From: Blastocatellia bacterium
Lineage (GTDB): Bacteria; Acidobacteriota; Blastocatellia; HR10
Length of the DNA stretch: 45,100 bases
Assembly (NCBI GenBank): GCA_035573895.1
Contig: DATLZR010000149.1
Location: 1-45,100 of the forward strand
Reading direction: 5' to 3'
Shown here: in pieces, positions 6,334 through 33,842 of the stretch
Layout: every line of letters begins with the position of its first letter
Numbering within the stretch: position 1 is the stretch's first letter
Position numbers and translations under genes: made by a program
The notes under the pieces: model-generated
What the model saw: only the letters and a program-made list of their open reading frames with translations
Databases searched by the model: none
What the model was told of the DNA's origin: nothing

Positions 6334-6903
6334 ATGCCACAAGAGGGTGCTTGTATCTCGGAGTTTCAGAATCCGGAACTCGAAGTCCTCATTGACGAGG
6401 CGACGCTCAAAAAGCGCATCGCTGAGCTGGGGGCTGAGATCACCCGGGACTATGCCGGGCGCACGCCCCATCTCGTGGGTGTGCTCAAGGGGGCGGTGGT
6501 GTTTCTGGCCGAACTGATGCGACACATTGATCTGCCGGTCACGCTCGATTTCATCGCTGTCTCCAGCTATGGCCGCTCCACCCGCACCACCGGTGAAGTG
6601 CGCATCATTAAGGACCTTGACGAAAGCCTGGCGGATCGAGACGTCCTGGTGGTGGAGGATATTCTCGATACGGGCTTGACGCTCAACTACCTGCTCACCA
6701 ACTTTCGCTCGCGGGAGGTTCGCTCGATCGGCATCGTGACCTTGCTCAACAAGCCGTCGCGGCGACGGGTTGAGGTCGAAGTCGCCTATAAGGGGTTTGA
6801 CATCCCCGATGCCTTCGTCGTCGGATTCGGTCTCGACTATGCCGAAAGATACCGCAATCTCCCCTTCGTGGCGATCCTGAAAAATGCCCCGACGCTTCCC
6901 TAG
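6334..6903 (+). CDS. hpt: hypoxanthine phosphoribosyltransferase
   Basis: Purine salvage enzyme that joins hypoxanthine (and usually guanine) to PRPP to make the nucleotide. The 189-residue length is normal. The PRPP-binding motif VVEDILDTG is at residues 106-114. The flexible-loop region SSYGRSTRTTGEV (77-89) and the purine-contact region near the C-terminus (PDAFVVGFGLDYAERYRNLP) are both clear. The ATG follows a GGAGGA ribosome site at a good distance and has its own promoter. A purine-type NCS2 permease lies far away at 43.6 kb, so no operon link is visible. Confidence 0.93.
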   Translation: MPQEGACISEFQNPELEVLIDEATLKKRIAELGAEITRDYAGRTPHLVGVLKGAVVFLAELMRHIDLPVTLDFIAVSSYGRSTRTTGEVRIIKDLDESLADRDVLVVEDILDTGLTLNYLLTNFRSREVRSIGIVTLLNKPSRRRVEVEVAYKGFDIPDAFVVGFGLDYAERYRNLPFVAILKNAPTLP

Positions 6904-6947
6904 ACCATCATGATGATTCTCCTCACCGATCCTCTTTCCCGGGCACA

Positions 6948-8468
6948 GTGAAGGGAGAGGTGGTCCTGGATGGGTTCGCTATGAACGAAAACGCACCGAC
7001 GTCGGAGAGAAAAATCGAAAGCGAAGCGACGACGGACTGGCTGGATCGTGCATTGAGCTTCCTCAGCTCCGTTCCGTTTGGCATCGCGCTCATGATCCTG
7101 CTGGTCATTTCCTCGTTGCTCGGCACGGTGATTCCCCAGGTCACGCTGGAGAACTTCGACGAGTTTTATCGGCGCTTGACGCCGGCCGAGCGGGCGCTCT
7201 ATGGCAGCCTCGGGCTGTTTGATCTCTATCATGCCTGGTGGTTCAGCGGGTTGATGGTTTTATTCGCGCTGAACCTCACGCTGGCCTCGATTGACATCGG
7301 AGCCAAGGCGCTGCGGTTTTATCGCCGACCGGCTCTCGCTCCTCCGGTGGCCTTTCTCTCAACACTGGCCTTCTCGCGCACGGGGGAGACCGGTTTTTCC
7401 GCCGATGTGGTGGATCGCTGCGCGGCGGTGTGTCGGGCTCTCCGGTTTCGCGTGACGGTGACATCCGAGGGCGAGCGCACGACGGTGTTCGCCGAACGGG
7501 GCCGATGGGTGCGGTGGGGAGGATTGGTGGTTCATCTCTCGCTCGTCGTCATCCTGGCGGGAGCCTTCGTGGGCTCGCGGTGGGGATATGAGGGGATCAT
7601 CACCGTTGCTCCGGGGACGACGGTCACCGATCTGTTCATTCCCGGTGTGCCGGCGCTGAACCGGCCAGACGAGCGACGGCCGCTTCCGTTCACGGTGGTG
7701 TGTCGTCGCATCTGGGTCGAACTGAAAAACCCTCAGGGTCCCATGACTCCGGCCAATATCATCAACTGGTATACCGAGGTGACGATCCGGGACCGGGACC
7801 GGGAACATCAGGGCGTCATCAAGGTGAATGGGCCGCTCGATTATCGAGGCCATCGCTTCTTTCAATCGGCAACCGGCGGCGGCGCCGATGCGAGTCGCAT
7901 CGTCGTGAGTTTCCGCCGGGACAATGGTGAGCCTCAGGTGATCACGCTCGACAAACTTCAGGCGGCCTCGGTGGAGGGAGTGGGAACGGTTCGATTCGTT
8001 CGATTTTTCCCCGATCTGCAACTTGTGGGAGGCGAACCCCGATCGGCATCAGACGACTATACGAACCCCGCCGCTGAGCTGGAAATCACGTCGTCCGACG
8101 GGGAGAGGAAAACGGTATGGGCGCTCAGCGAAGAGGCGGCCGATCTGTTTTCCGCCGATTCCAATGATTCCCTCGCGCCGTTCCGTCTGGCCGGCTGGCG
8201 CGTCGTTCTGCAGTCGTTCGACCGGGTGAGTCAGCACCACATTCTCCGCGTTCAATATGATCCCGGAGTCGGCGCCGTCTACGGAGGATCGGCGGTGCTG
8301 ATTCTGGCCCTGATGCTCGTGTTTGCCTTTGCTCATGAGCGCCTGTGGGTGGTTGTTCAAAGAGAGGGCGACCGTGCGCGATTCGTCCTGGGGGGTGAAA
8401 CCAATCGCCATCACCTGGGGTTTGAAAAGAAGTTTGAGGCAGTGGTGAAGGCATGCTTGACAGGCTGA
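6948..8468 (+). CDS. resB: ResB-family cytochrome c biogenesis protein
   Basis: ResB/CcsB works with CcsA/ResC in system II to move heme across the membrane and attach it to apocytochrome c. The protein is about 500 residues. The first membrane segment has the family signature VPFGIALMILLVISSLLGTV, the second follows FDLYHAWWFSG, and a third lies at WGGLVVHLSLVVILAGAFVG. A large periplasmic domain comes next, then a final membrane helix near the C-terminus (VYGGSAVLILALMLVFAFAH). The start is uncertain: GTG at 6948 gives a longer form, while ATG at 6981 (MNENAPTSERK) looks more natural, and neither has an ideal ribosome site. No ccsA gene is nearby in the window. Confidence 0.85.
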   Translation: MKGEVVLDGFAMNENAPTSERKIESEATTDWLDRALSFLSSVPFGIALMILLVISSLLGTVIPQVTLENFDEFYRRLTPAERALYGSLGLFDLYHAWWFSGLMVLFALNLTLASIDIGAKALRFYRRPALAPPVAFLSTLAFSRTGETGFSADVVDRCAAVCRALRFRVTVTSEGERTTVFAERGRWVRWGGLVVHLSLVVILAGAFVGSRWGYEGIITVAPGTTVTDLFIPGVPALNRPDERRPLPFTVVCRRIWVELKNPQGPMTPANIINWYTEVTIRDRDREHQGVIKVNGPLDYRGHRFFQSATGGGADASRIVVSFRRDNGEPQVITLDKLQAASVEGVGTVRFVRFFPDLQLVGGEPRSASDDYTNPAAELEITSSDGERKTVWALSEEAADLFSADSNDSLAPFRLAGWRVVLQSFDRVSQHHILRVQYDPGVGAVYGGSAVLILALMLVFAFAHERLWVVVQREGDRARFVLGGETNRHHLGFEKKFEAVVKACLTG

Positions 8469-8486
8469 CTTTCTCTTTGCTAGATT
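8457..8486 (+). promoter_or_regulatory. sigma70-type promoter for tRNA-Val
   Basis: TTGACA at 8457-8462 (overlapping the resB stop) and TAGATT at 8481-8486, spacer 18. The mature tRNA begins 24 bases after the -10. Confidence 0.65.
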
Positions 8487-8509
8487 GTCTCGCGCTGACA
8501 CAATGGAAT

Positions 8510-8584
8510 AGGCGCGTAGCTCAGGGGGAGAGCACTACCTTGACGCGGTAGGGGTCAGCGGTTCAAATCCGCTCGCGCCTACCA
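8510..8584 (+). tRNA. tRNA-Val (anticodon GAC)
   Basis: A complete cloverleaf of 75 bases with encoded CCA. The acceptor stem AGGCGCG pairs fully with CGCGCCT. The D-arm is GCTC/GAGC with a short 7-base loop. The anticodon stem CTACC/GGTAG carries the loop TTGACGC, with GAC at 8542-8544. The T-arm is AGCGG/CCGCT with loop TTCAAAT. It reads valine codon GTC. It sits alone between resB and thrS with its own promoter. Confidence 0.97.
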
Positions 8585-8592
8585 TTTTTATT

Positions 8593-8601
8593 TGGTATGA
8601 T
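8593..8601 (+). promoter_or_regulatory. candidate extended -10 promoter for the thrS operon
   Basis: TGG followed by TATGAT (8596-8601) forms an extended -10 (TGnTATnAT type) just after the tRNA. There is no clear -35. It would give a leader of about 130 bases before thrS. Confidence 0.4.
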
Positions 8602-8736
8602 GGGCGCCTTTGAAGCGGGTGATGATTGGACCGATGAAGGCAGTCTGCACGATGACGCGAGCGATGCAATCCTCACCCGTGCGCGTGAGGTGCCATCGTC
8701 AATCCATGCGGGAGGGAGTGTAACGTCGGAACGACA

Positions 8737-10689
8737 ATGGGAGTGTGGGTTCGTCTTCCTGACAGGGAACCGATCGAAGTTCCTTCTGGACTAACAGCCG
8801 CCGAAGCGATTGCCCGAGCCGATAGCCAGATCGCCGCACAGGCATTGGTAGCTCGGGTGGATGGTCAGCTCGTTGACCTGACGTACCGACCGCCCGATGG
8901 CAGCACGGTGGAGCCGATTCTCCCGGGAATGCCTGAAGCCCTCGAGGTCTATCGCCACTCGTCGGCCCACCTGCTGGCGGCCGCGGTCCTGGAGCTGTAT
9001 CCCGAGACGTTGCTCGGAATCGGGCCGCCGACCGACGACGGGTTCTTCTACGATTTCCTCCGGTCGGAACGGTTCACCCCGGAGGACCTCCAGCGCATCG
9101 AGGAGAAGATGCGGGAGTTGATCGAGAAGGATATTCCATTCGAGCGGATCGAGATTCCCCGTGACGAGGCGCTGCGGCATTTTGCCGCCGTGGGCGATCA
9201 TCTGAAATGCGAGTTGATCACGGATAAAGGCGGGCCGGTGGTCAGTTGTTACAAGCTCGGCGATCACATGATTGACTTCTGCCTCGGCCCTCACATTCCC
9301 TCGACCGGTCGCATCAAGGCGATCAAGTTGCTCAGCGTGGCGGGTGCCTACTGGCGCGGGGACGAGCGCAGCCACCAGATGCAACGCATCTACGGCACGT
9401 CATTTTTCAGCGAGGAGGAACTGGCGGCCTTCCTCCGCCAGCGCGAGGAGGCCGAGCGACGCGACCATCGCAAGCTCGGTCGGGAACTGGATCTGTTCAG
9501 CATCCAGGAAGAGTATGGACCGGGACTCATCTTCTGGCATCCCAAGGGCGGGATCATCCGCAAGGAGATCGAAGATTTCCTCCGGGCGGAACTGATCGAG
9601 CGCGGCTACGGACTCGTCTATACGCCGCATATTGCGCAGTTCGGTCTCTGGCAGCGGTCGGGCCATGCCGAGTTCTACCGCGACTCCATGTACGCCACCA
9701 TGGCGGTGGATGACGTCCAGTATCAGATCAAGCCGATGAATTGTCCCTTCCACATCGGCATTTATGCCAGTCGGCACCGGAGCTATCGCGAACTGCCGCT
9801 GCGGCTGGCGGAGTTCGGCACCGTCTATCGCTATGAGCGAAGCGGTGTCTTGCATGGCTTGCTGCGGGTGCGCGGGTTCACTCAGGACGACGCTCACATC
9901 TTCTGCACGCCGGAGACGCTCAAGCAGGAAATCATCGGCTGCCTCGATCTGGCGCGTCATGTCTATCGCACGTTCGGCTTCGATTATACCGTCGAACTGT
10001 CGGTCCACGACCCCAAAGATCGCTCCAAATACATGGGCGGTGAAGCCATGTGGGACTGGGCCGAGAAGACGTTGGCCGAGGCGCTCCGTCAGTTGGATCT
10101 CGACTTCCGCACAATCGAAGGCGAGGCGGCCTTTTACGGACCCAAAATTGACGTGAAAGTCGTGGACGCCATCGGCCGCTCCTGGCAGCTCGGTACCATT
10201 CAGCTCGATTTCAATCTGCCCGAGCGATTCGAGCTGGAATATATTGGGGAGGACAATCGGCCTCACCGACCGCTGATGATTCATCGCGCGATTCTGGGTT
10301 CGCTGGAGCGGTTCTTCGGTATCCTCATCGAGCACTACGCGGGAGCCTTCCCGTTGTGGCTGGCTCCGATTCAGGCCATCGTCCTGCCGATCACCGATAA
10401 GCAACAGGACTACGCCGTCGCCGTTCAAAAGCGTCTGCAAAAAGCCGGACTGCGGGTGGAGCTTGACGCGAGAAACGAAAAGATCGGCGCCAAGATCCGT
10501 CAGGCGCAGTTGCAGAAGATCCCCTTCATGCTGGTGGTCGGGCAGCGGGAAGCAGAGGCAGGAACGGTCTCCGTCCGCGAGCGCAGCCGGGGCGACCTGG
10601 GCGCTCTTCCGGTGGACGTTTTTTGTGATCGTGCCTGTCATCTGGTGCGGCAACGGAGCATCAGCCTGGAGTGGGAGGCTGTTTCGTGA
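8737..10689 (+). CDS. thrS: threonyl-tRNA synthetase
   Basis: Charges tRNA-Thr with threonine. The 650-residue class II enzyme has an N-terminal TGS domain (about 1-62). An editing domain follows, with HSSAH (H74 and H78) and the later Cys/His pair. The catalytic core contains the zinc ligands in [23 protein letters not shown] and [14 protein letters not shown], and a C-terminal anticodon-binding domain completes it. The start may be ATG 8737 or the GTG two codons later; the purine-rich GGGAGGG lies somewhat too far upstream for either. It heads the conserved translation block with infC, rpmI, rplT, pheS and pheT. No T-box or threonine attenuator was seen in the leader. Confidence 0.96.
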
Positions 10690-16944: not shown

Positions 16945-17283
16945 CTTTCTCAGCGAGTTCGCCCCTCGGGCGACGGCTCTCGGGGTAGGAAGGATGTCAC
17001 CGTGTGCCTTGATCATACTTCTTGAAGTTGTGTCGGATACACGGAGGACAAAACAACTGCTCTGCCACACGGCCAGGGGGATCGAAGCGATGCTACATGA
17101 GCCGGGGAATCTCAGCCGGTCCGATGTGCTGGGAGAGAAGTCAAGAGCATTGAAAGCATACCAGGGAGTAATCGGAATCCCGTCTGCGCTATTGGCACAC
17201 GATCGTTGCCTGAAAAGTCACACTCCTTGGTTGGGGGCGACGTACCGGTAAGAGTCAACGGCGGAAGCGTATTGTCAACGATG

Positions 17284-17312
17284 TTGACGCTCGGGGACCA
17301 CGCTGATAGAAT
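17284..17312 (+). promoter_or_regulatory. strong sigma70-type promoter for the GAF/AAA+ regulator
   Basis: TTGACG at 17284-17289, exactly 17 bases, TAGAAT at 17307-17312, each one mismatch from consensus. It lies inside any reading that starts at 17206, which fixes the gene start downstream at 17374. No -24/-12 sigma54 promoter was seen. Confidence 0.7.
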
Positions 17313-17373
17313 GGCGGCTACACGCGGACAGTGTGCCACTTATGCCGTCGGGTCGCAGGTAAGGGGGAAAGCA

Positions 17374-18909
17374 ATGACTTCTGGTGGAAGGCCAGCTCAG
17401 TCGCATTTACAGCATGGCTCCCTCGGGGAAAAGCTCTCGGCAGTCTTGAGAATCTGCCAGAAGCTGAGCGCCGAGCACGACCTGGACGCGTTGTTAGACC
17501 TGATCGCCCGCGAAGCGACGCGACTCATAGAAGCGGATCGGGCGAGCATTTTTCTCCTGGACGAAGAGAAGCGCGTGCTCTGGTCGCAAGTGGCGCTGGC
17601 GAGCGAACCGATTCGATTCGATGCCCGCCTGGGAATTGCCGGGGCCGTGGCCCTCACGGGAGAGACCATCAGAGTAGATGATGTCCGCCAGGACCCTCGC
17701 TTTTATCCCGGAATTGACGCCCGAACGGGCTATCGCACCCGCAACATCCTGGCCGTACCGCTGCGTACCACCGAGGGAGAGATCATCGGCACGTTCGAGG
17801 TATTGAACAAGAAGGGAGGATCTTTCACCCCGGAGGACGAGGAGCTATTGAAAGCGTTAGCTGCTCATGCGGCCATTTCCATCGAGACGGCCCGGCTGGT
17901 GAGCCAGTTGAGGGAGCATCGGGATCGTCTTCTGGAGGAGAATACGCGGTTATGGAAAGAGGTGGAGGGGAAATTCGCCACTCAGAATATCCTCGGCACG
18001 GACGAAAAGATTCAGCGCGTGGTGCGGCTCATCGAGCAAATCAGCGACACTACCCTCACCGTTTTGATTACGGGCGAAAGCGGAACAGGCAAAGAGCTGG
18101 TCGCCCGGGCGATTCACTACAGCAGCCCGCGCGCCCGTGGCCCCTTTGTGGCGTTGAACTGCGCGGCCTTGCCGGAAGGATTGGTGGAGACTGAACTCTT
18201 CGGCATCGAGAAGGGCGTGGCCACGGGTGTCGAACGACGCGCGGGAAAATTCGAGGAGGCTCATGGGGGAACACTCTTTCTCGACGAAATCGGCGACCTG
18301 AGCCTCCCGGCTCAGGCGAAGATCCTTCGCGCTCTGCAAGAGCGCGTCATCGAGCGCGTCGGAGGGCGACGCCCCATCCCCGTTGACGTGCGCATCGTGG
18401 CGGCAACGAACAAGGACCTTGCGAAGGAGATCACGAAGGGAACGTTTCGTGAGGATTTATACTATCGCTTGAAAGTGATCCATATCGAGATGCCTCCCCT
18501 GAGAGAGATCCGGCAGGACATTCCTCTCCTGGCCACCCATTTCCTCACCACCGCTTGTCGGGAGATGGGGAGGGAACCCAAAAAACTGTCGCCTGGAGCC
18601 ATTGCCTGCTTGATGAGTTACTCCTGGCCGGGGAATGTCCGGGAGTTGGAGAACGAGATGAAACGACTGGCGGCCATGACCTGGCGAAGGACGATTACCG
18701 AGGATGATCTCTCGGAGAACATCCGGCGGGGAGGAAAAGTCCCGTCTCCATCCGTCAGCTCGCTGAAAGAAGCCGTTGCCGAGATCGAGAAGCGGATGAT
18801 CCTGGAGGCTCTCCAGGCCTGTCGGCACAATCAACAGCGGGCGGCGCGGATGCTCGGCGTGAGTCGCCAGGGGTTGATCAAGAAGATGAAACGGTACGGC
18901 ATCAGGTAG
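17374..18909 (+). CDS. GAF-AAA+-Fis transcription regulator with altered GAFTGA loop
   Basis: A 511-residue regulator of the NtrC type. A GAF sensor domain (about 25-175) is followed by a short coiled linker, then an AAA+ domain with Walker A GESGTGKE (234-241) and Walker B LFLDEIG (301-307). The C-terminus is a Fis-type helix-turn-helix (NQQRAARMLGVSRQGLIKK). The sigma54-contacting loop, normally GAFTGA, reads GVATGV (281-286) in the context ELFGIEKGVATGVERR. Loss of the Phe and Thr pattern usually abolishes sigma54 activation, so it may regulate differently. There is no receiver domain, so the signal is probably a small molecule bound by GAF. The ATG has AAGGGGGAAA upstream. It appears monocistronic. 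Confidence 0.88.
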   Translation: MTSGGRPAQSHLQHGSLGEKLSAVLRICQKLSAEHDLDALLDLIAREATRLIEADRASIFLLDEEKRVLWSQVALASEPIRFDARLGIAGAVALTGETIRVDDVRQDPRFYPGIDARTGYRTRNILAVPLRTTEGEIIGTFEVLNKKGGSFTPEDEELLKALAAHAAISIETARLVSQLREHRDRLLEENTRLWKEVEGKFATQNILGTDEKIQRVVRLIEQISDTTLTVLITGESGTGKELVARAIHYSSPRARGPFVALNCAALPEGLVETELFGIEKGVATGVERRAGKFEEAHGGTLFLDEIGDLSLPAQAKILRALQERVIERVGGRRPIPVDVRIVAATNKDLAKEITKGTFREDLYYRLKVIHIEMPPLREIRQDIPLLATHFLTTACREMGREPKKLSPGAIACLMSYSWPGNVRELENEMKRLAAMTWRRTITEDDLSENIRRGGKVPSPSVSSLKEAVAEIEKRMILEALQACRHNQQRAARMLGVSRQGLIKKMKRYGIR

Positions 18910-25270: not shown

Positions 25271-26611
25271 TCACCGCGTGGCGCTGCGTTGGAGCGCCGT
25301 TTTGACGAAGCCGAGAAGCTCTTCGATGGTGCAGGGCTTCGTCAGATAGAGGCTTTGCGTGTCGCGCAAGAAGGTGAGCGTGTGGGGGCTGATGACATCC
25401 CCGCTCAGAAAAACGATTCGTCGGGCTATCTCCGGATCCACCCGACTGAAGTGTTGAAAGAGTTCCATGCCGCCCACGCCCGGCATCTTCAAATCCGCCA
25501 CGATGAGATCATAGCGATTGGCTTCGATCAAGCCGATGGCGGCTTCCCCGTCGAGCGTCGTATCCACGATGTAGTTGTGCGACTGGAGAATACGCCGGAT
25601 GAGTTCGGCAACGGCTTTTTCATCGTCCACCACGAGGATGCGTTTCCGTTCCATCTCCTCCACTGTCGGTTCCGTGACGGGAGCCGTCGGTGACGATGAA
25701 GCGGCGACCGTATCAACGAGAGTTCGGGCCGATTGGGCCAGCTCGCGAACCGTCTCGATGGCCTGTCGCGCTTCGGTTCGGATGAGTCCCAGATTCTCCG
25801 CCACCTCCTCGTTTTCGCTCAGAGAGTGGTTCAGGATCTGGGCATAGAGATTGATGCTCGTCAGCCGATTATTGATGTCGTGCGCGATCTGGGAGATCGT
25901 TTCCACAAGATGACGCAGATCGGGACGCGGCTCGGACGTGACCGATGCGGCGCCGCCGGCGAGGACGTACCGATGCGCGTACTCGTAGCGGGCGGTGATT
26001 TCTTCGGAGAAGGACTCGGCCAGAATCTGAACGAGGTCGCGCACGCCCTGAAGTTTCTCGCCGTCCAGAGCGAGATCGAATGCCTGCTGGTAGCGTGTCC
26101 CCAGCGCGGGATTTCCTTCGGGAAAGAGTCTTTCCAGTTCGGCGCAGCCATAGAAGTTGAGGATGGGATACGCGGCGACGGTCAAGCTCGCTTTGGGATA
26201 GCGGCGGCCCTCGAAAGTGAGGATGATCGGGCAGCTCCAGAGCGTCTTGCGCCCGCCGACGCAATCGGCGCTCACCGGGCGCAGCTCTTTCATCGCCTTG
26301 AGCGATGCCTGCCAGGTATCAATGACGCAGCGGGGCAGGCCGGTCGCTCTATCCTCCAGCTTGTTGAGTTCGCGGCAGAGCGGCGATTGCACCAGCAACG
26401 GCAGCGCATCGTGAACCAGCGGCAGGGGGAAATCCTCATCGTAGAGATAAACCGACGCCTCCATGTGGGTGATGATGCTCAATTGAATTTGCAGGCGGAG
26501 GATCTTCGTCGTATCTATGAGCAGTCCCAGTTCGATCCGGTCCGGCGGCAGGAGCCGACCGGAGGCATCGAGACAGCGCGACACATCGAATGTCCAGGAT
26601 CGCTGGCGCAT
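25271..26611 (-). CDS. PocR-like sensor / HisKA / receiver protein lacking a kinase ATPase domain
   Basis: 446 residues. The N-terminal ~185 residues contain a Cys pattern (C79, C95, C117, C127) resembling the PocR ligand-binding domain (CRELNKLEDRATGLPRC, DCVGG, SCPI). A dimerisation/H-box helix follows with QIAHDINNRLTSI, H244 being the phospho-acceptor candidate. There is then no HATPase_c domain: after LAQSARTLVDT and a Ser/Pro linker the chain goes directly to a complete receiver domain (LVVDDE at 327-331, D373 in VADLKMP, K425 in LTKPC). It may act as a phosphorelay or dimer scaffold served by another kinase. It starts 9 bases after the FHA gene stop and ends the wall-control operon. 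Confidence 0.82.
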   Translation of the reverse strand: MRQRSWTFDVSRCLDASGRLLPPDRIELGLLIDTTKILRLQIQLSIITHMEASVYLYDEDFPLPLVHDALPLLVQSPLCRELNKLEDRATGLPRCVIDTWQASLKAMKELRPVSADCVGGRKTLWSCPIILTFEGRRYPKASLTVAAYPILNFYGCAELERLFPEGNPALGTRYQQAFDLALDGEKLQGVRDLVQILAESFSEEITARYEYAHRYVLAGGAASVTSEPRPDLRHLVETISQIAHDINNRLTSINLYAQILNHSLSENEEVAENLGLIRTEARQAIETVRELAQSARTLVDTVAASSSPTAPVTEPTVEEMERKRILVVDDEKAVAELIRRILQSHNYIVDTTLDGEAAIGLIEANRYDLIVADLKMPGVGGMELFQHFSRVDPEIARRIVFLSGDVISPHTLTFLRDTQSLYLTKPCTIEELLGFVKTALQRSATR

Positions 26612-26620
26612 AGTTACCGG

Positions 26621-27436
26621 TCAGGTCAACTCGATAACACGGACACAGTAGCGGCCAATACCGATCTCATCTCCGGGGGCGATGGCCGCTTCTTCTCCGG
26701 CCTCCATCTCCCGGCCGTTGAGCGTCAGGGGATTCCGGCCCTCGACGACCAACATCCACCGGTTTGCCGCCTGACGCTGGAGCCGGGCGTGACGACGGCT
26801 GATCTCCAGATCGCCGGGAAGCTCCAGGTCCACGGCCACCGTGGTTCCCCCACGCCCGATGGTCACGACGGGAAGCGAGAACGCGCGCACCGTTTTCTCG
26901 CCTCCCTCTCGCGTGCTGACTTCGACCACCAGGCGATAAGGCGCGATCACGCGCGTCTCTTCATCCTGAGGTTTCATCTCCAGCGGCGTCGTCTGGCCGC
27001 CGGGTGGGGCCGGTCCGAGAAGAGTCGTCTTCTGTTCGTCGCGGTGCCAGATCGGGGTGACCGAAAACTGTCCCGGCGGGAGCGATCCGTCCACCCGGAT
27101 CTGGATGGCGAACGATTCGGTATGGTGACGGCCGCGGGTGATCTCGCGCGCGCGCATCGCCGTCAGATTCTGCAATCCGCGCACGAAACCGATCCGCTTC
27201 TCACCGCGCAGCGCCGCATCATCCTCTCGGCTGAGGAAGACGACATATCCCGGAGGAACGTACACCGGCTCGTTGGGAGGCGAGAGCATCTCCTCCCGCA
27301 TCACCCGTTCGATCTCGGCGGCGATTTGGTGAAGAAATTCATCCCAGCGCGACGGCGATTCGTCGGCCGTCCCGACATATTCCCTGTCCAGATCGGCGAG
27401 AAATCCCTTCAGTTTTTTCAACCACCCTCGACTCAT
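26621..27436 (-). CDS. FHA-domain protein with FhaA-type N-terminal domain
   Basis: 271 residues from the ATG at 27436 (MSRGWLKKLKGFLADL). The N-terminal half resembles the DUF3662/FhaA N-domain (PVYVPPGYVVFLSREDDAALRGEKR). The C-terminal ~90 residues form an FHA phosphothreonine-binding domain with VVTIGRGGTTVAVDLEL, ISRRHARL and LNGREMEAGEEAAI. FHA domains dock on proteins phosphorylated by Ser/Thr kinases. It lies between the PP2C phosphatase and the HisKA/receiver gene on the same strand. Readings extending to 27568 add unconserved sequence. A TATACT at 27609-27614 (minus strand) could be a -10 in the 223-base gap before it. Confidence 0.78.
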   Translation of the reverse strand: MSRGWLKKLKGFLADLDREYVGTADESPSRWDEFLHQIAAEIERVMREEMLSPPNEPVYVPPGYVVFLSREDDAALRGEKRIGFVRGLQNLTAMRAREITRGRHHTESFAIQIRVDGSLPPGQFSVTPIWHRDEQKTTLLGPAPPGGQTTPLEMKPQDEETRVIAPYRLVVEVSTREGGEKTVRAFSLPVVTIGRGGTTVAVDLELPGDLEISRRHARLQRQAANRWMLVVEGRNPLTLNGREMEAGEEAAIAPGDEIGIGRYCVRVIELT

Positions 27437-27659
27437 CCAGTCATCGCACGGCCAATGAGGAGCGTCGGCTCTCCCCTCTGCCCGACGTTTCCCACCGGCG
27501 ACCGGGTCGCACGGACCATTCGGCCAGCACCCCTGAGCAAACGAGAAAACCCATGCTCCTTGTCGCACGAGCTTTCGCGCCTGCGATTCCTCACTTGACG
27601 GCTGCTAGTATACTCAGTCAGCCACCGCCAATCCACTGCCTTTCGTTCGAATTATCCCT

Positions 27660-29108
27660 TCAGCGACGTGACGACGCCTTCTGCCGGCCGAGGTAGGTTT
27701 GCAGCAGGCGATCCGCTTCGGCTGACTCCCCGCACGCCTCCAGCGCGGCTGCCGCAAAGAGGAGATTCTCGTCGCTGCCCCGGAGTTCCACAGCCGTGAG
27801 AAAGCTCTCGGCGGCTTCCCGCCACTTGCCGGCAGCCAGACGGACGCGCCCCAGCCAGTGATAATAGACGCTATTGTTCTGGTCGAGATCAACGGCGCGA
27901 TGAAAATCCCGTTCGGCCTGTTCGTAGAGTCCCTGGTTGAAATGACGGATGCCTTGATCGAACGTGGCATGAGCTTCCGCTTCCGCAGGAGAGGGCGCGA
28001 TCGTCGGTGTCACCGTCCTCGATCCATTCGTGCTCCAGGAACGGCCGAGGAGCAAACCGGTGACAAAGATGAGAAGCGCACTGATGACGGTAGCGGCAAT
28101 GCTCGGCCCACCGATCTTCCACCAGGGCGGCTGACGGCTGCTTCTCCCTGTGGGCTCCGCTGCCGCCGGATGAGATCCCGCCTCCGATTCCACCCCCTCT
28201 CGCGGGGAGAGATCGTCGCTCACGGTCCGATCGGTCAGAGGATGTTTGGGCAAAGCCCAGGCGGGCTGATCCCGGTGAGCGACCGACGGACGCGCGGGCC
28301 CGCCCGTTTCGCCGTCGCTTTCGTCGGTCGCCCGCGTCAAGCGGTGAGGCACAACGTCTACATTCACGATGAGCGCGGTCAAATTGTCTCGCGCTCCCCG
28401 CTCGTAGCAGAGGTCTTTCAGACGATCACAGGCCGTTTGCGGATCCGGCTCCTCGGTCAGGATGTCCTGCAGTTCCTCGTCGCTGATGTGATGCGTGATC
28501 CCATCGGTGCAAAGGAGAAATCGCGTCCCGGGCTCCAGCGCGATCTTCTTGATGTCGGGTTTGGCCACCTCCTCGATGCCGAGAGCGCGGGTGAGGATAT
28601 GGCGCTTGGTATACTCCAGGATGGAGAGTCCGCCGCCGTGCTCATATTCCACCAGGACATGATCGTGCGTTTCCCGGGACAGCACTCCGTCGGTCAGACG
28701 ATAGACGCGACTGTCTCCGATGTGACAGATGAGGGCATGGCGCGACTCAATCAAGACCAGCGCCAGCGTCGTGGCCATCCCGGTGAGCGATTCTTCCTCC
28801 ACCGCCAGCTCGTAGAGATAGCTGTTGGTATAGCCGATGATCTGCTCCAGGTATCGAATCCTGTCACTGCGGACCTTGCGGCTGAAATGGTGGCGGAGGA
28901 TTTCCACGGCCACCTGACTGGCGACTTCGCCGGCATTTTGTCCGCCGACGCCATCGGCGACGGCAAAGACACAGGCGTCTTCCAGCGCCAGGAAGAAATC
29001 TTCGTTCACCGGTCGTCTCGGATTCAGTCCCCGGTCGCAAACGACGCCATAGATGCCGCGTTTGAACGGGCGGGAGGACTCCAGCCGGATGTGATTGCGC
29101 TCCCCCAT
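27660..29108 (-). CDS. PP2C-type Ser/Thr protein phosphatase with membrane anchor and TPRs
   Basis: 482 residues. The catalytic domain (about 15-252) has all core motifs: RRPVNEDFF (31-39), FAVADGVGG (D52), GDSRVYR (131-137), CTDGITHHISDEEL (D202) and RGARDNLTALIV (D241). An acidic/Pro linker leads to one membrane helix (about 334-356, ATVISALLIFVTGLLLG). A periplasmic tail with two to three TPR units then follows (QGLYEQAERDFHRAV, KWREAAESFLTAVEL). This matches PstP/PrpC-like phosphatases that reverse Ser/Thr phosphorylation. Periplasmic TPRs are an unusual addition and may contact wall enzymes. The gene abuts the FtsW/RodA gene with no gap. Confidence 0.9.
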   Translation of the reverse strand: MGERNHIRLESSRPFKRGIYGVVCDRGLNPRRPVNEDFFLALEDACVFAVADGVGGQNAGEVASQVAVEILRHHFSRKVRSDRIRYLEQIIGYTNSYLYELAVEEESLTGMATTLALVLIESRHALICHIGDSRVYRLTDGVLSRETHDHVLVEYEHGGGLSILEYTKRHILTRALGIEEVAKPDIKKIALEPGTRFLLCTDGITHHISDEELQDILTEEPDPQTACDRLKDLCYERGARDNLTALIVNVDVVPHRLTRATDESDGETGGPARPSVAHRDQPAWALPKHPLTDRTVSDDLSPREGVESEAGSHPAAAEPTGRSSRQPPWWKIGGPSIAATVISALLIFVTGLLLGRSWSTNGSRTVTPTIAPSPAEAEAHATFDQGIRHFNQGLYEQAERDFHRAVDLDQNNSVYYHWLGRVRLAAGKWREAAESFLTAVELRGSDENLLFAAAALEACGESAEADRLLQTYLGRQKASSRR

Positions 29109-30656
29109 TCAGGCCCTCTGACGCGCTCTCTGCGAGAGCGCCATCAACACGCCGATGAGGGCGAAGGAGGTCACCAGCGACCAGCCTCCATGACTGACAA
29201 AGGGCAACGTGATGCCCGTCATCGGCAGAAGCTTGATGACCCCGCCGATGTTCACCAGCGCCTGAAAAACGAGAAAACAGGTCGCGCCGGCGGCGATCAA
29301 GCGGGTGAACATGTCGGTGACCGAGAGCGTTATTGTAATGCCCGCCAGCCCGAGGAGCAACAAGGCGCCGACCACGAGGACTCCTCCGATCCATCCCATC
29401 TCTTCGGCGATGGCGGCATAGATGAAATCCGATTCGGAGACGGGAACAGTCTCCGGCATTCCCAGACCGAGTCCCGTCCCGATCAGCCCGCCTTCGGTCA
29501 GGCCAAAGAGCCCCTGCATGAGCTGCAACGCTTGGTCGCGCCAGAGTTCATCGTTGCTGATTTTCCCCGGACCCGACGGACCGAAACGTTGAGCCAGGAC
29601 CCGCTGCCACCATTCGGTCTGAGGATCGGGCGCCTGCCAGGTGCTGTGCCACAGATGCCACCGCACGAACACTCGAGGGGGAATCTTCCCCACCGCGTAC
29701 GCCAGTAACCCAATCGCCAGAGCCAGAATCACTCCGTGCACAATCTGCGCCCGACGGCCGACGGCGATCAGATAGAGGGTGAAGTAAACGGTGAGAAAGA
29801 CCATCAACTGTCCGAAATCGCTCAGCACGAAGAAGGGCAAAATGGCGAAAGCCGTCACGACCACCAGCGGCAGCACCGATCGTGCCGGGGGAAGATTCCA
29901 CTGGGTGACCCGGATGACGCTGTAGGTGTCCACCAGAATCCCGGCCAGGCTGATGAGGAAGATGATCTTGCCGACTTCCCAGGGCGTCGTCTCCTCCAGA
30001 AGTTTTCCGCTCCGAGCCAGTCCGGCCACGATCAGCAGGGGAATGAACGCCGCGACGGCGAGCGTGACACTGTGTCGCTGCAGCCAGGAAAGGACGGACT
30101 CGCGGCGAAGGGCAAGGAAGCTCACGACCAGAGCCAGGACGGCCAGTGGCGGGGCATAGGTGGACGCCGAGGAGAAAAATTCCTGCGCCGTCACCGTCGT
30201 GCGCATGAGAGGGGGTGCCGAGACATCCGAGCCGATGCCGGGACTGCTCCCCGTCAGAATATCGCGCTTGGCCTCATCGTAAGCGGCTTCGATGGCCAGT
30301 GCCCGCCAGGCGCGAATCTTCGCCTTCCGGTGCGCCGTGACCAGGTCCTGCCTGCCCGCCAGCCGGGCGACATATTCGGGATCGCTGAAGAGCCGATATT
30401 GAGCGACCGATCCCACCGCGAAGAGGAGAAATGCGGCTGTGAAGATGGTCAAATTTCCCCGGTAGCGCGCCCCCCTGATGAGAACCACGAAGACGACGGA
30501 CAGACCCATCAGCACCACGAGATTGCGTGCTACCGGCCAGAGACTCGGAGCATAGCCCCGCGAGAGACTGCTCAGATAGATCGCCCCATAGCCGCAGATC
30601 GAAGCGGCAATCACCAGCAGATGGATCAGAAGATGAGCTGACGGCTTATTCATCAC
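29109..30656 (-). CDS. FtsW/RodA/SpoVE-family glycan polymerase
   Basis: 515 residues with about 10 membrane helices. Family signatures include EGGLIGTGLGLGMPETVPVS, SESDFIYAAIAEEMGWIGG (the ESDFIFA-type motif) and the final NIGGVIKLLPMTGITLPFVS followed by HGG. These proteins polymerise lipid II into glycan strands together with a class B penicillin-binding protein. A soluble insertion sits at about 90-155 between early helices, larger than in E. coli RodA. The partner transpeptidase gene lies just upstream, separated by 87 bases that hold a palindromic element. FtsW and RodA roles cannot be told apart from sequence; the cluster order resembles actinobacterial rodA-pbpA. Confidence 0.92.
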   Translation of the reverse strand: MMNKPSAHLLIHLLVIAASICGYGAIYLSSLSRGYAPSLWPVARNLVVLMGLSVVFVVLIRGARYRGNLTIFTAAFLLFAVGSVAQYRLFSDPEYVARLAGRQDLVTAHRKAKIRAWRALAIEAAYDEAKRDILTGSSPGIGSDVSAPPLMRTTVTAQEFFSSASTYAPPLAVLALVVSFLALRRESVLSWLQRHSVTLAVAAFIPLLIVAGLARSGKLLEETTPWEVGKIIFLISLAGILVDTYSVIRVTQWNLPPARSVLPLVVVTAFAILPFFVLSDFGQLMVFLTVYFTLYLIAVGRRAQIVHGVILALAIGLLAYAVGKIPPRVFVRWHLWHSTWQAPDPQTEWWQRVLAQRFGPSGPGKISNDELWRDQALQLMQGLFGLTEGGLIGTGLGLGMPETVPVSESDFIYAAIAEEMGWIGGVLVVGALLLLGLAGITITLSVTDMFTRLIAAGATCFLVFQALVNIGGVIKLLPMTGITLPFVSHGGWSLVTSFALIGVLMALSQRARQRA

Positions 30657-30743: not shown

Positions 30744-32594
30744 CTACCTGTGTGGCTCCCTCATCCGGCGGATGCGAGCGAGGGAAGAATTTGACCCGGA
30801 CCGGCGCGATGGACGGGCCAGAGCCTTCACCGGAGTCCCCGTCACGCGAACGATTCCTGCGGCGAGGGCTTCTTTGACGATCTCTGCAGCCATCGGTGCC
30901 GCTACCGCTCCGCCGTAGCCTCCGCCCTCAACAACGATGGCGTAGGCGATCTGCGGACGCTCGCTCGGTGCGAACCCGATGAACCAGGAATCCACCCGAC
31001 GCCCGCCGGGAGTTTCGATTTGAGCTGTTCCCGTCTTGCCACCGGTGAGAATCCCCTGACGACGCAGTGAAGCGAATGCCGAAGCCGCCGTGCCCCCCGG
31101 CTGAGTCGTCACCGCCGTGAGCAAGGCTCGCATTCGCGCCGCCGTGGCGGCTGACAGCGGTCGCGCCAGAACGCGCGGCGGCTGAAGAAAATCCAGCCGG
31201 GGAGCCATCATCTCTCCTCTCGGATGGGCCACCGCTTGAGCCAGGAGCGCCATCTGCAGGGGCGTCACCTGCACAAAGCCTTGCCCATAGGACTCCAGCG
31301 CCACATCATAGGTCCCCATCGTTGAGGAAAGGACCAGCCGACTCACATTCGGGCTGAAGATGCGCTCAAATGAACGATCCCGATTGGTCCAGAGATCGTC
31401 GGCGAATTTCGGATCGCGGGCGCTCTCCGGCGCGGGATCAATATGGAAGCCGAAGCGTCGCGCCGTTTCCGCCAGCCGATCGGCTCCCAGCATCACGCCG
31501 AGTTGGGCGAAGTACTGATTGCATGAGACGCGCAATGCATCGGCCAGACCGATGCGTCCATGAACTTCACCGGGACCCCCGTCATCGTAGATGGGACGAG
31601 AAGATCCGCCCGGACGATAGCCCTCCCGCGAGCAGGTGAAGGTGAGATCTTTCCAGCCATTCTCCAGAGCGGCGACGGCGACCAGCGTCTTGAATGTCGA
31701 GCCCGGCAAGTAGTACTGTCGCACGGCGCGATTGATCAGTCGTTGAGCCGGATCGGAGACGAGCTGCTCCCACGCGGTATCATCCTCGACGGCGCGGGGA
31801 TCGAACGTGGGCATGCTCGCCATGGCCAGGACATCCCCGTCCTCCACCGAGAGGACGACGACGGCTCCCGGTCTGCCCGTCCGCCGAAGCGCCTGTGCTG
31901 CCGCCCGTTGAAGTCGGGCATCGAGCGTCAGGATCACATCCTCGCCGACGAGGCGCGTCTTCCAGAGATCGGCCAGACGCCCGCGCCGAGGACGCAGAAG
32001 ACTGTTGTAGGCCAGTTCCGCTCCTGAACTCCCCCGAACGAGCGTGTGATAGCCGATGATCGAAGCCGCATCCGGCCCCAGCGGATAATAGCGAGCGAGA
32101 GAGTCGCCCTCCAATCGGTAGCCCGCCAGCAGGCTCTCCTCTTCGATCCGCATCCGTTCGGCGGCCGACCTCTGCCTTTGCCGTGAGGAGGACTCGCCCA
32201 GCTCCTTCTTCCTTCGATCAAAAATCCAGCCGCGCAAGCCGATCTCCTCCAGCCGCCGATTGCGCTGATCATACAGGCGCTTGGATCGCGTGTAGCTTTC
32301 GTTCTCACCGAGCGGTCCGCTCACGAAGAAAGCCCAGTATCCGTGAGCGATCAGAACCACGATGCCGCTCACAATGAACACCGCGCGCAATCCGTTGAGC
32401 CAGCGCGTCACGGAGGCGGACAGAGGCGAAAGCGTCGTTTTTCCGGGAGCGGTGGGGGAGGTCCCCGTTCCCGGCTGAGGGGGGGGCCTCTCGGTGCGTC
32501 GCCGCTCCGCCCAGCACAGAAGTGCCGCCCGCCACACCGCCAGCACCAGAAGGACGAGAAAAACCAGACTCAGATACCGGGCGAGCACTATCAT
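30744..32594 (-). CDS. class B penicillin-binding protein (transpeptidase)
   Basis: Cross-links peptidoglycan in the periplasm. 616 residues from the ATG at 32594 (MIVLARYLSLVF), preceded by GAGGATCAGCC. Two N-terminal membrane helices (about 5-28 and 70-92) are unusual; most class B enzymes have one. The transpeptidase domain has S299-TFK302, S357-CN and K520-TG, the three required motifs. The region around 120-215 looks like a short dimerisation/pedestal domain (RGWIFDRRKKELGESS, YPLGPDAASIIGYHT), much like the PbpA/PBP2 family. It pairs with the FtsW/RodA gene downstream and an FHA gene 10 bases upstream. Confidence 0.92.
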   Translation of the reverse strand: MIVLARYLSLVFLVLLVLAVWRAALLCWAERRRTERPPPQPGTGTSPTAPGKTTLSPLSASVTRWLNGLRAVFIVSGIVVLIAHGYWAFFVSGPLGENESYTRSKRLYDQRNRRLEEIGLRGWIFDRRKKELGESSSRQRQRSAAERMRIEEESLLAGYRLEGDSLARYYPLGPDAASIIGYHTLVRGSSGAELAYNSLLRPRRGRLADLWKTRLVGEDVILTLDARLQRAAAQALRRTGRPGAVVVLSVEDGDVLAMASMPTFDPRAVEDDTAWEQLVSDPAQRLINRAVRQYYLPGSTFKTLVAVAALENGWKDLTFTCSREGYRPGGSSRPIYDDGGPGEVHGRIGLADALRVSCNQYFAQLGVMLGADRLAETARRFGFHIDPAPESARDPKFADDLWTNRDRSFERIFSPNVSRLVLSSTMGTYDVALESYGQGFVQVTPLQMALLAQAVAHPRGEMMAPRLDFLQPPRVLARPLSAATAARMRALLTAVTTQPGGTAASAFASLRRQGILTGGKTGTAQIETPGGRRVDSWFIGFAPSERPQIAYAIVVEGGGYGGAVAAPMAAEIVKEALAAGIVRVTGTPVKALARPSRRSGSNSSLARIRRMREPHR

Positions 32595-32604
32595 TGGCTG
32601 ATCC

Positions 32605-33312
32605 TCAATCCGACGACGATGAGGAAAGGTCCTCGACGACAAGACGCACGGCGCCGAGCCGCACCTCATCCCCGGGCTGGATCCGACAGTGCGTCGTCAC
32701 CCGTCGCTCGTTGACGAACGTCCCGTTGGCGCTGCCGCAATCGGCAATGATCGGCAACCCATCCGCACCGAGCGACAGGGTGGCATGGAAGCGCGAGAGG
32801 CTCTCATGGGCAATCACAATATCGTTGTCGGGGCTCCGACCAACGGTGAACCGCCCTTGAGGATCGAGCGTCTCCAGAGCGACTACAACGGTCTCATCCT
32901 CCAGCCGTCGCAAGCGCCATCGCGGCCAGTGACGCGCCTCCTCCTGATGATCTGCCTCGACAACGAACGACGAGGCGAGCTGGACATCAGCCAGAAGACT
33001 GACACCGAGCGCCCCCGTGACGGTGTAGCGGTGATCGGCGATGTACTGTTGGGCGATCTCTCGAACGACCGTCTCCAGATTTGCCCGACCGGCCTCATCG
33101 AGTCGGGTGTAGAGATCCACCGGGAGCCGAAGGGTGATCCGATTGGGCGCGATCCGACGAATTCCTTGCCGATCTGCTGCCAGCCGATGTTCAATCGCCT
33201 TCTGAACGGCGGGGATGAGGGCGGGCAGAGTCACTCCTTCGCTCTCGCGGCCGAGAGCACGATCCAGATACTCTCCCAGCCGATCCAGCCATTTTCGCAC
33301 CGCTTCTTCCAC
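32605..33312 (-). CDS. FhaA-like protein (DUF3662 plus FHA domain)
   Basis: 235 residues from a GTG at 33312 that has GGGAGAGG just upstream. Longer readings to 33567 are Arg-rich and unlike protein. The N-terminal domain (about 1-120) matches the FhaA-type DUF3662 pattern: WLDRLGEYLDRALG, then the conserved APNRITLRLPVDLY core. The C-terminal FHA domain has GRFTVGRSPDNDIVI, SLSRFHATL and DCGSANGTFVNERRV, with the phosphothreonine-binding Arg, Ser and Asn residues in place. In mycobacteria FhaA links kinase PknB to wall enzymes, and the adjacent PBP and FtsW/RodA genes here suggest a similar job. Confidence 0.82.
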   Translation of the reverse strand: MEEAVRKWLDRLGEYLDRALGRESEGVTLPALIPAVQKAIEHRLAADRQGIRRIAPNRITLRLPVDLYTRLDEAGRANLETVVREIAQQYIADHRYTVTGALGVSLLADVQLASSFVVEADHQEEARHWPRWRLRRLEDETVVVALETLDPQGRFTVGRSPDNDIVIAHESLSRFHATLSLGADGLPIIADCGSANGTFVNERRVTTHCRIQPGDEVRLGAVRLVVEDLSSSSSD

Positions 33313-33428
33313 TGCGCCTCTCCCGCCGCACCCGCTCGACCCATGCGACCGCCTCCGGTCGAGCGCATGGCAGGTCCCATCACGGATTCCCCTGCGGGCT
33401 GTGACGGAGACGGATCCCCCTGCTGCGT

Positions 33429-33842
33429 TTATTCCCCCATGACCTTGATGACGACGCGCTTCCGACGGCGACCGTCGAACTCCGCATAGAAGATCCGCTG
33501 CCAGGGACCGAGATCGAGCTTGCCTCCGGTGACGGGAATGATCACCTGATGGTGAATGAGCAAGCACTTCAGATGGGCGTCACCGTTATCCTCTCCCGTC
33601 TCGTGATGGCGATAGTCGCGCCCGTAGGGAGCGATCGTCTCCAACATGGCATCGAGGTCCTGGAGAAGGCCGTCCTCGTCGTCGTTGACATACACGCCAG
33701 CCGTCGTGTGCATGGCCGAGACGAGGACCATCCCTTCGGTGATGCCGCTGGCACGAACGGCTCGTTCGACATCCGCTGTGATGTTGATGTATTCGCGTCG
33801 CTTCCTGGTGTTGAAGACGAGATAGTCTGTATGTGTTTTCAT
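33429..33842 (-). CDS. YjbQ/UPF0047 family protein
   Basis: 137 residues from the ATG at 33842 ([12 protein letters not shown]). The family signature is complete: [20 protein letters not shown] and [20 protein letters not shown], plus [20 protein letters not shown]. YjbQ proteins are small metal-binding trimers; a weak thiamine phosphate synthase activity is described, but the true role is unsettled. No ribosome site precedes the ATG, and a TATATT lies so close that the message may be leaderless. The FhaA-like gene follows on the same strand after 116 bases, so a functional link to wall control is possible but unproven. Confidence 0.88.

Follow-up and report, generated by a model that had tools for sequence, protein, structure and literature searches.

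We present here a bacterial protein that joins an N-terminal sensor, a histidine-bearing DHp-like hairpin, and a complete receiver in one chain, with no HATPase domain between the last two. Its gene lies in the window, the whole stretch of DNA analyzed, which comprises 45,100 nucleotides of a Blastocatellia bacterium (GenBank assembly GCA_035573895.1, contig DATLZR010000149.1). Five other genomes repeat the same layout, which confirms that this intact sensor/H-box/receiver protein is real and not a product of chance. The layout, its conservation, the selection acting on each domain, and the neighboring genes were established from the sequences. We propose that a two-component module has been split here, that this protein would be its receiver half and take its phosphoryl group in trans, and that its DHp hairpin would act as a phosphatase, relay, or dimerizer, somewhat as in RetS; we give this proposal about an even chance of being right.

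The minus-strand open reading frame is uninterrupted and encodes 446 amino acids (Table 1). Pfam matched Response_reg at residues 325 to 434 (E = 6.8e-21) and HisKA at residues 237 to 295 (E = 2.5e-5), the latter scoring 24.7 bits, just short of the 26.9-bit cut-off. No HATPase family matched the protein at E ≤ 1, and a simple pattern scan found no motifs resembling a G box or N box; the remnant of such boxes for which the original prediction had proposed a search is therefore absent from the linker by either method. The hairpin and receiver are separated by about 25 residues, compared with about 215 residues, including the HATPase domain, in a hybrid kinase encoded on contig C158 of the same genome. 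The original prediction of a sensor, an H-box, and a receiver without an HATPase domain thus holds, and H244, D373, and K425 lie where it had placed them. The receiver has the makings of a phosphorylatable one, namely the Response_reg match and three invariant residues (Table 1). The window protein, five of five orthologs from its family, and three of three orthologs from a second family all lack an HATPase_c domain between HisKA and receiver, which sets them apart from hybrid histidine kinases. The conserved histidine-bearing helix pair, with receiver and sensor in one chain, instead agrees with the class of "HisKA, no HATPase" response regulators, an assignment drawn from HisKA matches in six of six proteins of the window's family, each under the Pfam cut-off. 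The maximum 19-residue mean hydropathy is 1.1, which makes a membrane segment unlikely. A full-length structure model had a mean pLDDT of 62.8, with only the receiver part reliable, and the best 50 Foldseek matches listed for it were receivers. The best NCBIfam similarity, over residues 305 to 441, was to EspC, at 95.1 bits and far under the family cut-off of 1200 bits.

Table 1. Features of the receiver gene, its protein, and its surroundings in the window
Feature	Position	Strand	Basis or remark
Gene for the sensor/DHp hairpin/receiver protein, 446 aa, without HATPase	25271..26611	-	ORF, Pfam, five full-length orthologs
N-terminal sensor, residues 1-214	25970..26611	-	Five cysteines invariant in 6/6; GAF-like in a low-confidence model; marginally PocR-like
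DHp-like hairpin, residues 230-297	25721..25924	-	H244 and N248 invariant in 6/6; acid at H+1 in 5/6
Fast-evolving linker, residues 298-322	25646..25720	-	Place of the HATPase domain in a hybrid kinase
Receiver, residues 323-446	25274..25645	-	D330, D373, and K425 invariant in 9/9
FHA protein with FhaA_N domain	26621..27568	-	9 bases upstream of the receiver gene
PP2C phosphatase with C-terminal TPR	27660..29108	-	Same-strand upstream neighbor in 9/9 loci
RodA/FtsW-family protein, wall cluster	29109..30656	-	Pfam; RodA class search
Penicillin-binding protein (transpeptidase), wall cluster	30744..32669	-	Pfam
Upstream FHA protein, wall cluster	32605..33567	-	Pfam

Six genomes of the window's family (f1) were examined, the five others all belonging to genus g2. 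Each of these five encodes one full-length ortholog, 51 to 55% identical to the window protein, and all five keep its order of sensor, hairpin, short linker, and receiver. In the window's own genome, a search with the protein returned an additional weak match in C158. A separate scan of genome contigs gave two loci, both matching in the receiver only. In full-length Pfam scans, every g2 ortholog matched HisKA (E = 1.1e-5 to 4.5e-3), though with a score short of the cut-off, and none matched HATPase (at E ≤ 0.1 for the G004 protein and E ≤ 1 for the other four). H244, N247, N248, D373, and K425 are invariant in all six f1 proteins, while the acid at H+1 is D or E in five and replaced by G in one; across the hairpin, 26 of 68 positions are invariant. 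Ratios of dN/dS were 0.09 to 0.19 for the hairpin and 0.17 to 0.29 for the sensor (six pairs each), 0.09 to 0.18 for the receiver (five pairs; one further pair was saturated), and 0.38 to 0.82 for the linker (six pairs). Values for the 17-codon H-box alone were scattered, from 0.06 to 0.82, with one pair undefined. By these estimates, the hairpin is under purifying selection and the linker much less so. Because the linker ratio is high relative to the flanking domains, the place of the missing ATPase is a loose spacer between constrained domains, and because close relatives share the layout, the protein looks like a working design and not a broken gene.

A hybrid kinase with an HATPase domain, that of C158, is indeed related to the receiver and, less strongly, to the hairpin, as might be expected if the window gene were a recent deletion mutant or a sequencing error of such a kinase. 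This explanation is highly improbable and already refuted: the frames are uninterrupted and the layout is the same in five of five other f1 genomes at 51 to 55% identity, dN/dS is low in every domain, and shorter orthologs without HATPase exist in a second family. The original prediction had taken the intact frame as a sign of something other than simple decay, which the five repeats of the layout bear out. It had also allowed that homologs might carry an HATPase domain at this point, making the present copy the exception; none of the five f1 orthologs and none of the three from the second family does.

That second family, f2, belongs to the same order and was found by searching the 162 genomes of the class for the receiver at E ≤ 1e-20, which matched nine genomes, the six of f1 and three of f2 (G020, G021, and G022). 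The closest f2 matches share 50 to 55% identity, measure about 211 to 224 amino acids with start codons chosen by hand, and consist of a helical stretch and a complete receiver without the sensor. Neither HisKA nor HATPase was matched by Pfam in any of the three. The residues aligned to H244 are Q, E, and Q, at a place where the alignment is uncertain, and an hhalign comparison of the f2 helical stretch with the f1 DHp hairpin gave a P value of 0.0084 over 21 columns with a probability of only 4.7%. Histidines are present in G020 one and four residues beyond this place, but not in its close relative G021.

These syntenic orthologs, a helical stretch and receiver without that histidine, fit a ligand-gated dimeric receiver, in which the hairpin would merely dimerize, H244 would be a relic, and the sensor and receiver would bind PP2C or other partners. 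Such a design also agrees with the HisKA scores, which stay under the Pfam cut-off in the window protein and in every ortholog that matched. It is nevertheless improbable in our estimate, since H244 is kept in six f1 proteins although the hairpin around it has diverged and since dN/dS is low across the hairpin.

Two further types of protein carry related receivers. The C158 type comprises GAF-PAS-HisKA-HATPase-receiver hybrid kinases (Pfam, own and G022 copies), whose receivers are more distant paralogs. The copy in the window's genome (G000:C158, 18597-20771) ranks first there as a match to the receiver and to the hairpin alike, and cross-talk between it and the window protein might occur. 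The other type is represented by an 823-amino-acid protein on contig C103 of G021 (L170, 992-3460) with the architecture GAF-GAF-PAS-HisKA-receiver. Pfam matched HisKA at residues 620 to 670 (40.4 bits, above the cut-off) and the receiver at 702 to 812 in this protein, and no HATPase; G020 carries a piece of a protein of this type, cut by a contig end. One continuous alignment, running from the H-box to the receiver, relates the C103 protein to the window protein (34% over 200 columns). When its HisKA-receiver part was searched against the class, all six f1 proteins aligned across both domains, and the C158-type and short f2 proteins aligned at the receiver end only. Outside the orthologs, the receiver of the C103 protein is one of the nearest. 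The f1 profile for the hairpin by itself did not match the C103 protein, which speaks against close kinship. By these domain assignments, the order contains the HATPase-less HisKA-receiver layout in combination with two dissimilar sets of sensors.

The receiver profile scored 108 to 117 bits against the C158 and C103 types, and none of the remaining receivers tested scored above 61. A receiver tree covering 23 of the 27 distinct places (nine of 36 rows were duplicates, and four weaker or partial sequences were omitted) joined the f1, f2, C158, and C103 types with support of 94/97, their order not being settled. A DHp tree of all 19 distinct sequences among 23 rows had long branches and grouped the f1 hairpin neither with the neighboring kinases described below nor with the C158 type. 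The f1 layout may go back to an old loss of the HATPase domain from a hybrid kinase in a common ancestor, or it may have lacked that domain from the start.

A receiver-less HisKA-HATPase kinase is encoded beside the gene and convergent with it in six of six loci that are long enough (four g2, two f2); the G001 contig ends inside a TPR gene and the G020 contig at the receiver gene. Downstream and convergent in g2 are the TPR gene and then an 800-amino-acid GAF-GAF-PAS-HisKA-HATPase kinase, in four of four such loci, with domains taken from Pfam on the G004 copy, to which the other copies are 68 to 88% identical. The intervening TPR gene lies at 12047-13153 in L048, with equivalents in L047, L049, L050, and L051; the window's genome matches its product weakly (best 29% identity, E = 6.6e-16). 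In f2, kinase and receiver gene stand tail to tail in two of two loci: in G021 (L116), the kinase at 6858-8627 (+) and the receiver gene at 8629-9276 (-) have one base between the ORFs, and in G022 (L115), they occupy 8753-10189 (-) and 7711-8604 (+), respectively. The f2 and g2 kinases share 43 to 46% identity C-terminally and differ in their N termini, and are treated here as having similar C-terminal parts and not as established orthologs. The g2 kinase has an ortholog in the window's genome (GAF-GAF-PAS-HisKA-HATPase, 44% identical over 773 columns), which is carried on contig C122, of 4,597 bases, and is not adjacent to the receiver gene.

On its other side, the receiver gene begins 9 bases past the stop codon of an FHA gene, a spacing so short as to suggest that the two share one transcript; promoter and terminator scans gave nothing above their shuffles. 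Upstream on the same strand, a PP2C gene is present in nine of nine loci (window, five g2, three f2). The receiver gene comes directly after PP2C in the five g2 genomes, after PP2C in G020 and G021, after PP2C, a Ser/Thr kinase, and FHA in G022, and after PP2C and then FHA in the window. A cluster of the order FHA-PBP-RodA-PP2C-Ser/Thr kinase-FHA is found in G022 (f2), G023 (family f3), and G125 (family f6), with the kinases identified by Pfam, and because of this spread the wall cluster is older than f1. The window RodA was matched in 133 of 162 class genomes at E ≤ 1e-40, with no match at that threshold in the five g2 genomes, G020, or G021, and the stretches read from these same seven genomes (that of G020 being short) contained no cluster PBP or FHA. 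Wall genes are thus not beside the receiver gene in seven of the nine genomes. The suggestion of a ligand-gated receiver tied to the wall cluster stands insofar as the gene follows the cluster's FHA gene in the window and G022; it does not extend to the five g2 genomes, where the RodA, PBP, and FHA genes are absent from this place and PP2C stays adjacent. The durable association is with PP2C, together with the neighboring histidine kinase in relatives.

The Ser/Thr kinase found between PP2C and FHA in G022, G023, G125, and G148 is missing from the window at 27568-27660, where 91 bases separate the two genes; PP2C and both FHA genes remain. Other f1 kinases match the cluster's Ser/Thr kinase at 29 to 39%, over the N-terminal part only. 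Elsewhere in the window, positions 17206-18909 (+) encode a regulator with GAF, sigma-54 activator, and Fis-type helix-turn-helix parts and no receiver.

A DHp hairpin without a CA domain cannot autophosphorylate. We propose that the ATP-using step would be supplied in trans, mainly because a receiver-less kinase adjoins the gene in relatives. A separate GAF/PAS histidine kinase of this kind, the relatives' neighbor or its ortholog on C122, would autophosphorylate and, as the putative donor, phosphorylate D373 in trans. The hairpin, lacking a kinase part, would dimerize the protein, and under the control of the sensor and its presumed ligand, it would either remove the phosphoryl group as a phosphatase or transfer it further. 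Whether the receiver is phosphorylated would then be sensed by direct contact with another protein, probably the PP2C encoded upstream as the presumptive target; gene order alone makes PP2C the best candidate for the output. Against the proposal stand the distance of the C122 kinase from the receiver gene in the window's genome, the N-terminal differences between the f2 and g2 kinases, the DHp tree, and the scattered dN/dS values of the H-box alone.

The residues around the histidine bear on what the hairpin may do. In CrdS, the equivalent of N248 (H+4) is described as needed for phosphatase activity only and the acid at H+1 for kinase activity only (PMC3510030). Because N248 is invariant in six of six f1 proteins and the H+1 acid is not, the pattern favors a putative phosphatase or relay function. 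The same account gives NtrB and EnvZ as examples of DHp-only phosphatase activity, which the CA domain greatly increases (PMC3510030). Three positions before K425, at the beta5 switch, the window protein has Y, the five g2 orthologs H or R, and the three f2 orthologs F. The H or R in five of six f1 receivers argues against classical allosteric output and for phosphotransfer. Variability at this position is reported for CckA receivers in a study of intermediary receivers (PMC9981736), and by analogy it would favor a relay in f1.

Taken further, the protein could be a single-chain phosphorelay intermediate, with transfer from D373 to H244, or back, and then to another response regulator, as though Spo0F and Spo0B were combined in one chain. 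The loss of the aromatic switch residue in five of six f1 receivers would suit intermediary receivers as that study describes them (PMC9981736), and the invariance of H244 and N247/N248 in six of six f1 proteins and the second HATPase-less HisKA-receiver protein in G021, with its histidine, point the same way; the one ortholog with G at H+1 should still be able to accept phosphate on its histidine. We regard this relay as possible but on balance unlikely, for three of three syntenic f2 orthologs lack the histidine there yet keep the receiver and neighborhood, and the genes identified in the loci read include no conserved downstream response regulator beside the gene. With the histidine invariant in f1 and replaced in f2, phosphotransfer through the DHp histidine, as in proteins of the Spo0B/ChpT type, and the phosphotransfer hub of the original prediction are no more than possible.

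Within the preferred reading of a receiver phosphorylated in trans, one may also suppose that the wall cluster's Ser/Thr kinase beside PP2C was lost in this lineage and that a His-Asp module, made up of the trans kinase and the sensor-gated, kinase-less DHp-receiver protein, took over the regulation of PP2C, a scenario that we consider rather doubtful. If true, two-component phosphorylation would steer Ser/Thr dephosphorylation of envelope proteins.

Several described systems resemble the protein in part. A 2018 archaeal census lists "HisKA, no HATPase" proteins, including receiver-bearing ones, and presents them as not studied experimentally and of unknown partners (PMC5847659); P2CS flags HisKA proteins without HATPase as probable incomplete kinases (PMC2716373). 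The AF_1472-type archaeal proteins of that census similarly combine a sensor and/or receiver with a HisKA that has a conserved histidine and no HATPase, whereas the window protein is bacterial, sits in a PP2C neighborhood, has a candidate kinase beside it in relatives, and carries a sensor not identified as PAS, with a GAF fold only suggested (PMC5847659). RetS of Pseudomonas aeruginosa is described as kinase-dead, with HisKA and receiver, acting on another kinase's phosphoryl groups, and as phosphorylated in trans by GacS; it keeps a degenerate HATPase and more than one receiver, while the window protein has one receiver and no HATPase at all by Pfam (PMC5992135). In CheA3/CheA4 of Rhodobacter sphaeroides, ATP binding and phosphotransfer/phosphatase functions are likewise placed on two proteins, but the two halves make one kinase, whereas the candidate partner here has its own HisKA and HATPase (PMC3591291). 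EspA of Myxococcus xanthus phosphorylates in trans the receiver of EspC, the best NCBIfam similarity here; EspA and EspC are hybrid kinases, however, and the EspC match covers only the receiver end of the window protein (PMC4320627). Our literature search for ATPase-less DHp proteins and for the acidobacterial wall cluster returned nothing direct.

The window protein is a bacterial variant of the HATPase-less HisKA proteins, one with candidate partners: in relatives, its neighbors include a possible kinase and, with PP2C, a possible output. Because these candidates and natural f2 orthologs without that histidine exist, the role of the orphan histidine could be addressed with few purified proteins.

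In the sensor, C13, C79, C95, C117, and C127 are invariant in six of six f1 proteins, and a profile of residues 1 to 214 matched 3 of 396 phylum genomes, all of them f1. A class search with sensor plus hairpin matched 65 of 162 genomes, over the whole length in the six f1 genomes and at the hairpin or slightly before it in the others. The PocR label of the original prediction found little support: PF10114 left the window protein unmatched at E ≤ 10 and matched two of six f1 proteins (best E = 0.0021; 18 bits for the G003 protein against a curated cut-off of 23.9), and a profile-profile comparison of the sensor with 12 PocR domains of the class gave a probability of 0.4%. With Pfam, the class-wide PF10114 search, the profile comparison, and a PDB sequence search all short of firm support, the label is weak. 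The sensor model was of low confidence (pLDDT 55.7) and matched no structure at E ≤ 0.001. Its best VIA rows were mostly GAF domains, with Z up to 7.6 and an rmsd of 3.9 over 127 residues, a level that may mean only a common arrangement. The sensor may thus be called GAF/PocR-like, with a GAF fold suggested by the model.

Elsewhere in the class, the PocR matches of other families were considered as orthologs and rejected; by eye they resemble PocR-GAF-GGDEF proteins, a reading made on 29 of 30 loci, without a profile and with some cut by the locus end. In f6, a PocR gene of this appearance shares a contig with the wall-cluster RodA in 20 genomes, judging from the contig numbers of the two sets of matches, and a link there between c-di-GMP and the wall cluster is possible. 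The gene lies about 5.6 to 18.5 kb from RodA, for example, at 13738-15444 in L157, 3697-5316 in L158, and 3261-5363 in L159.
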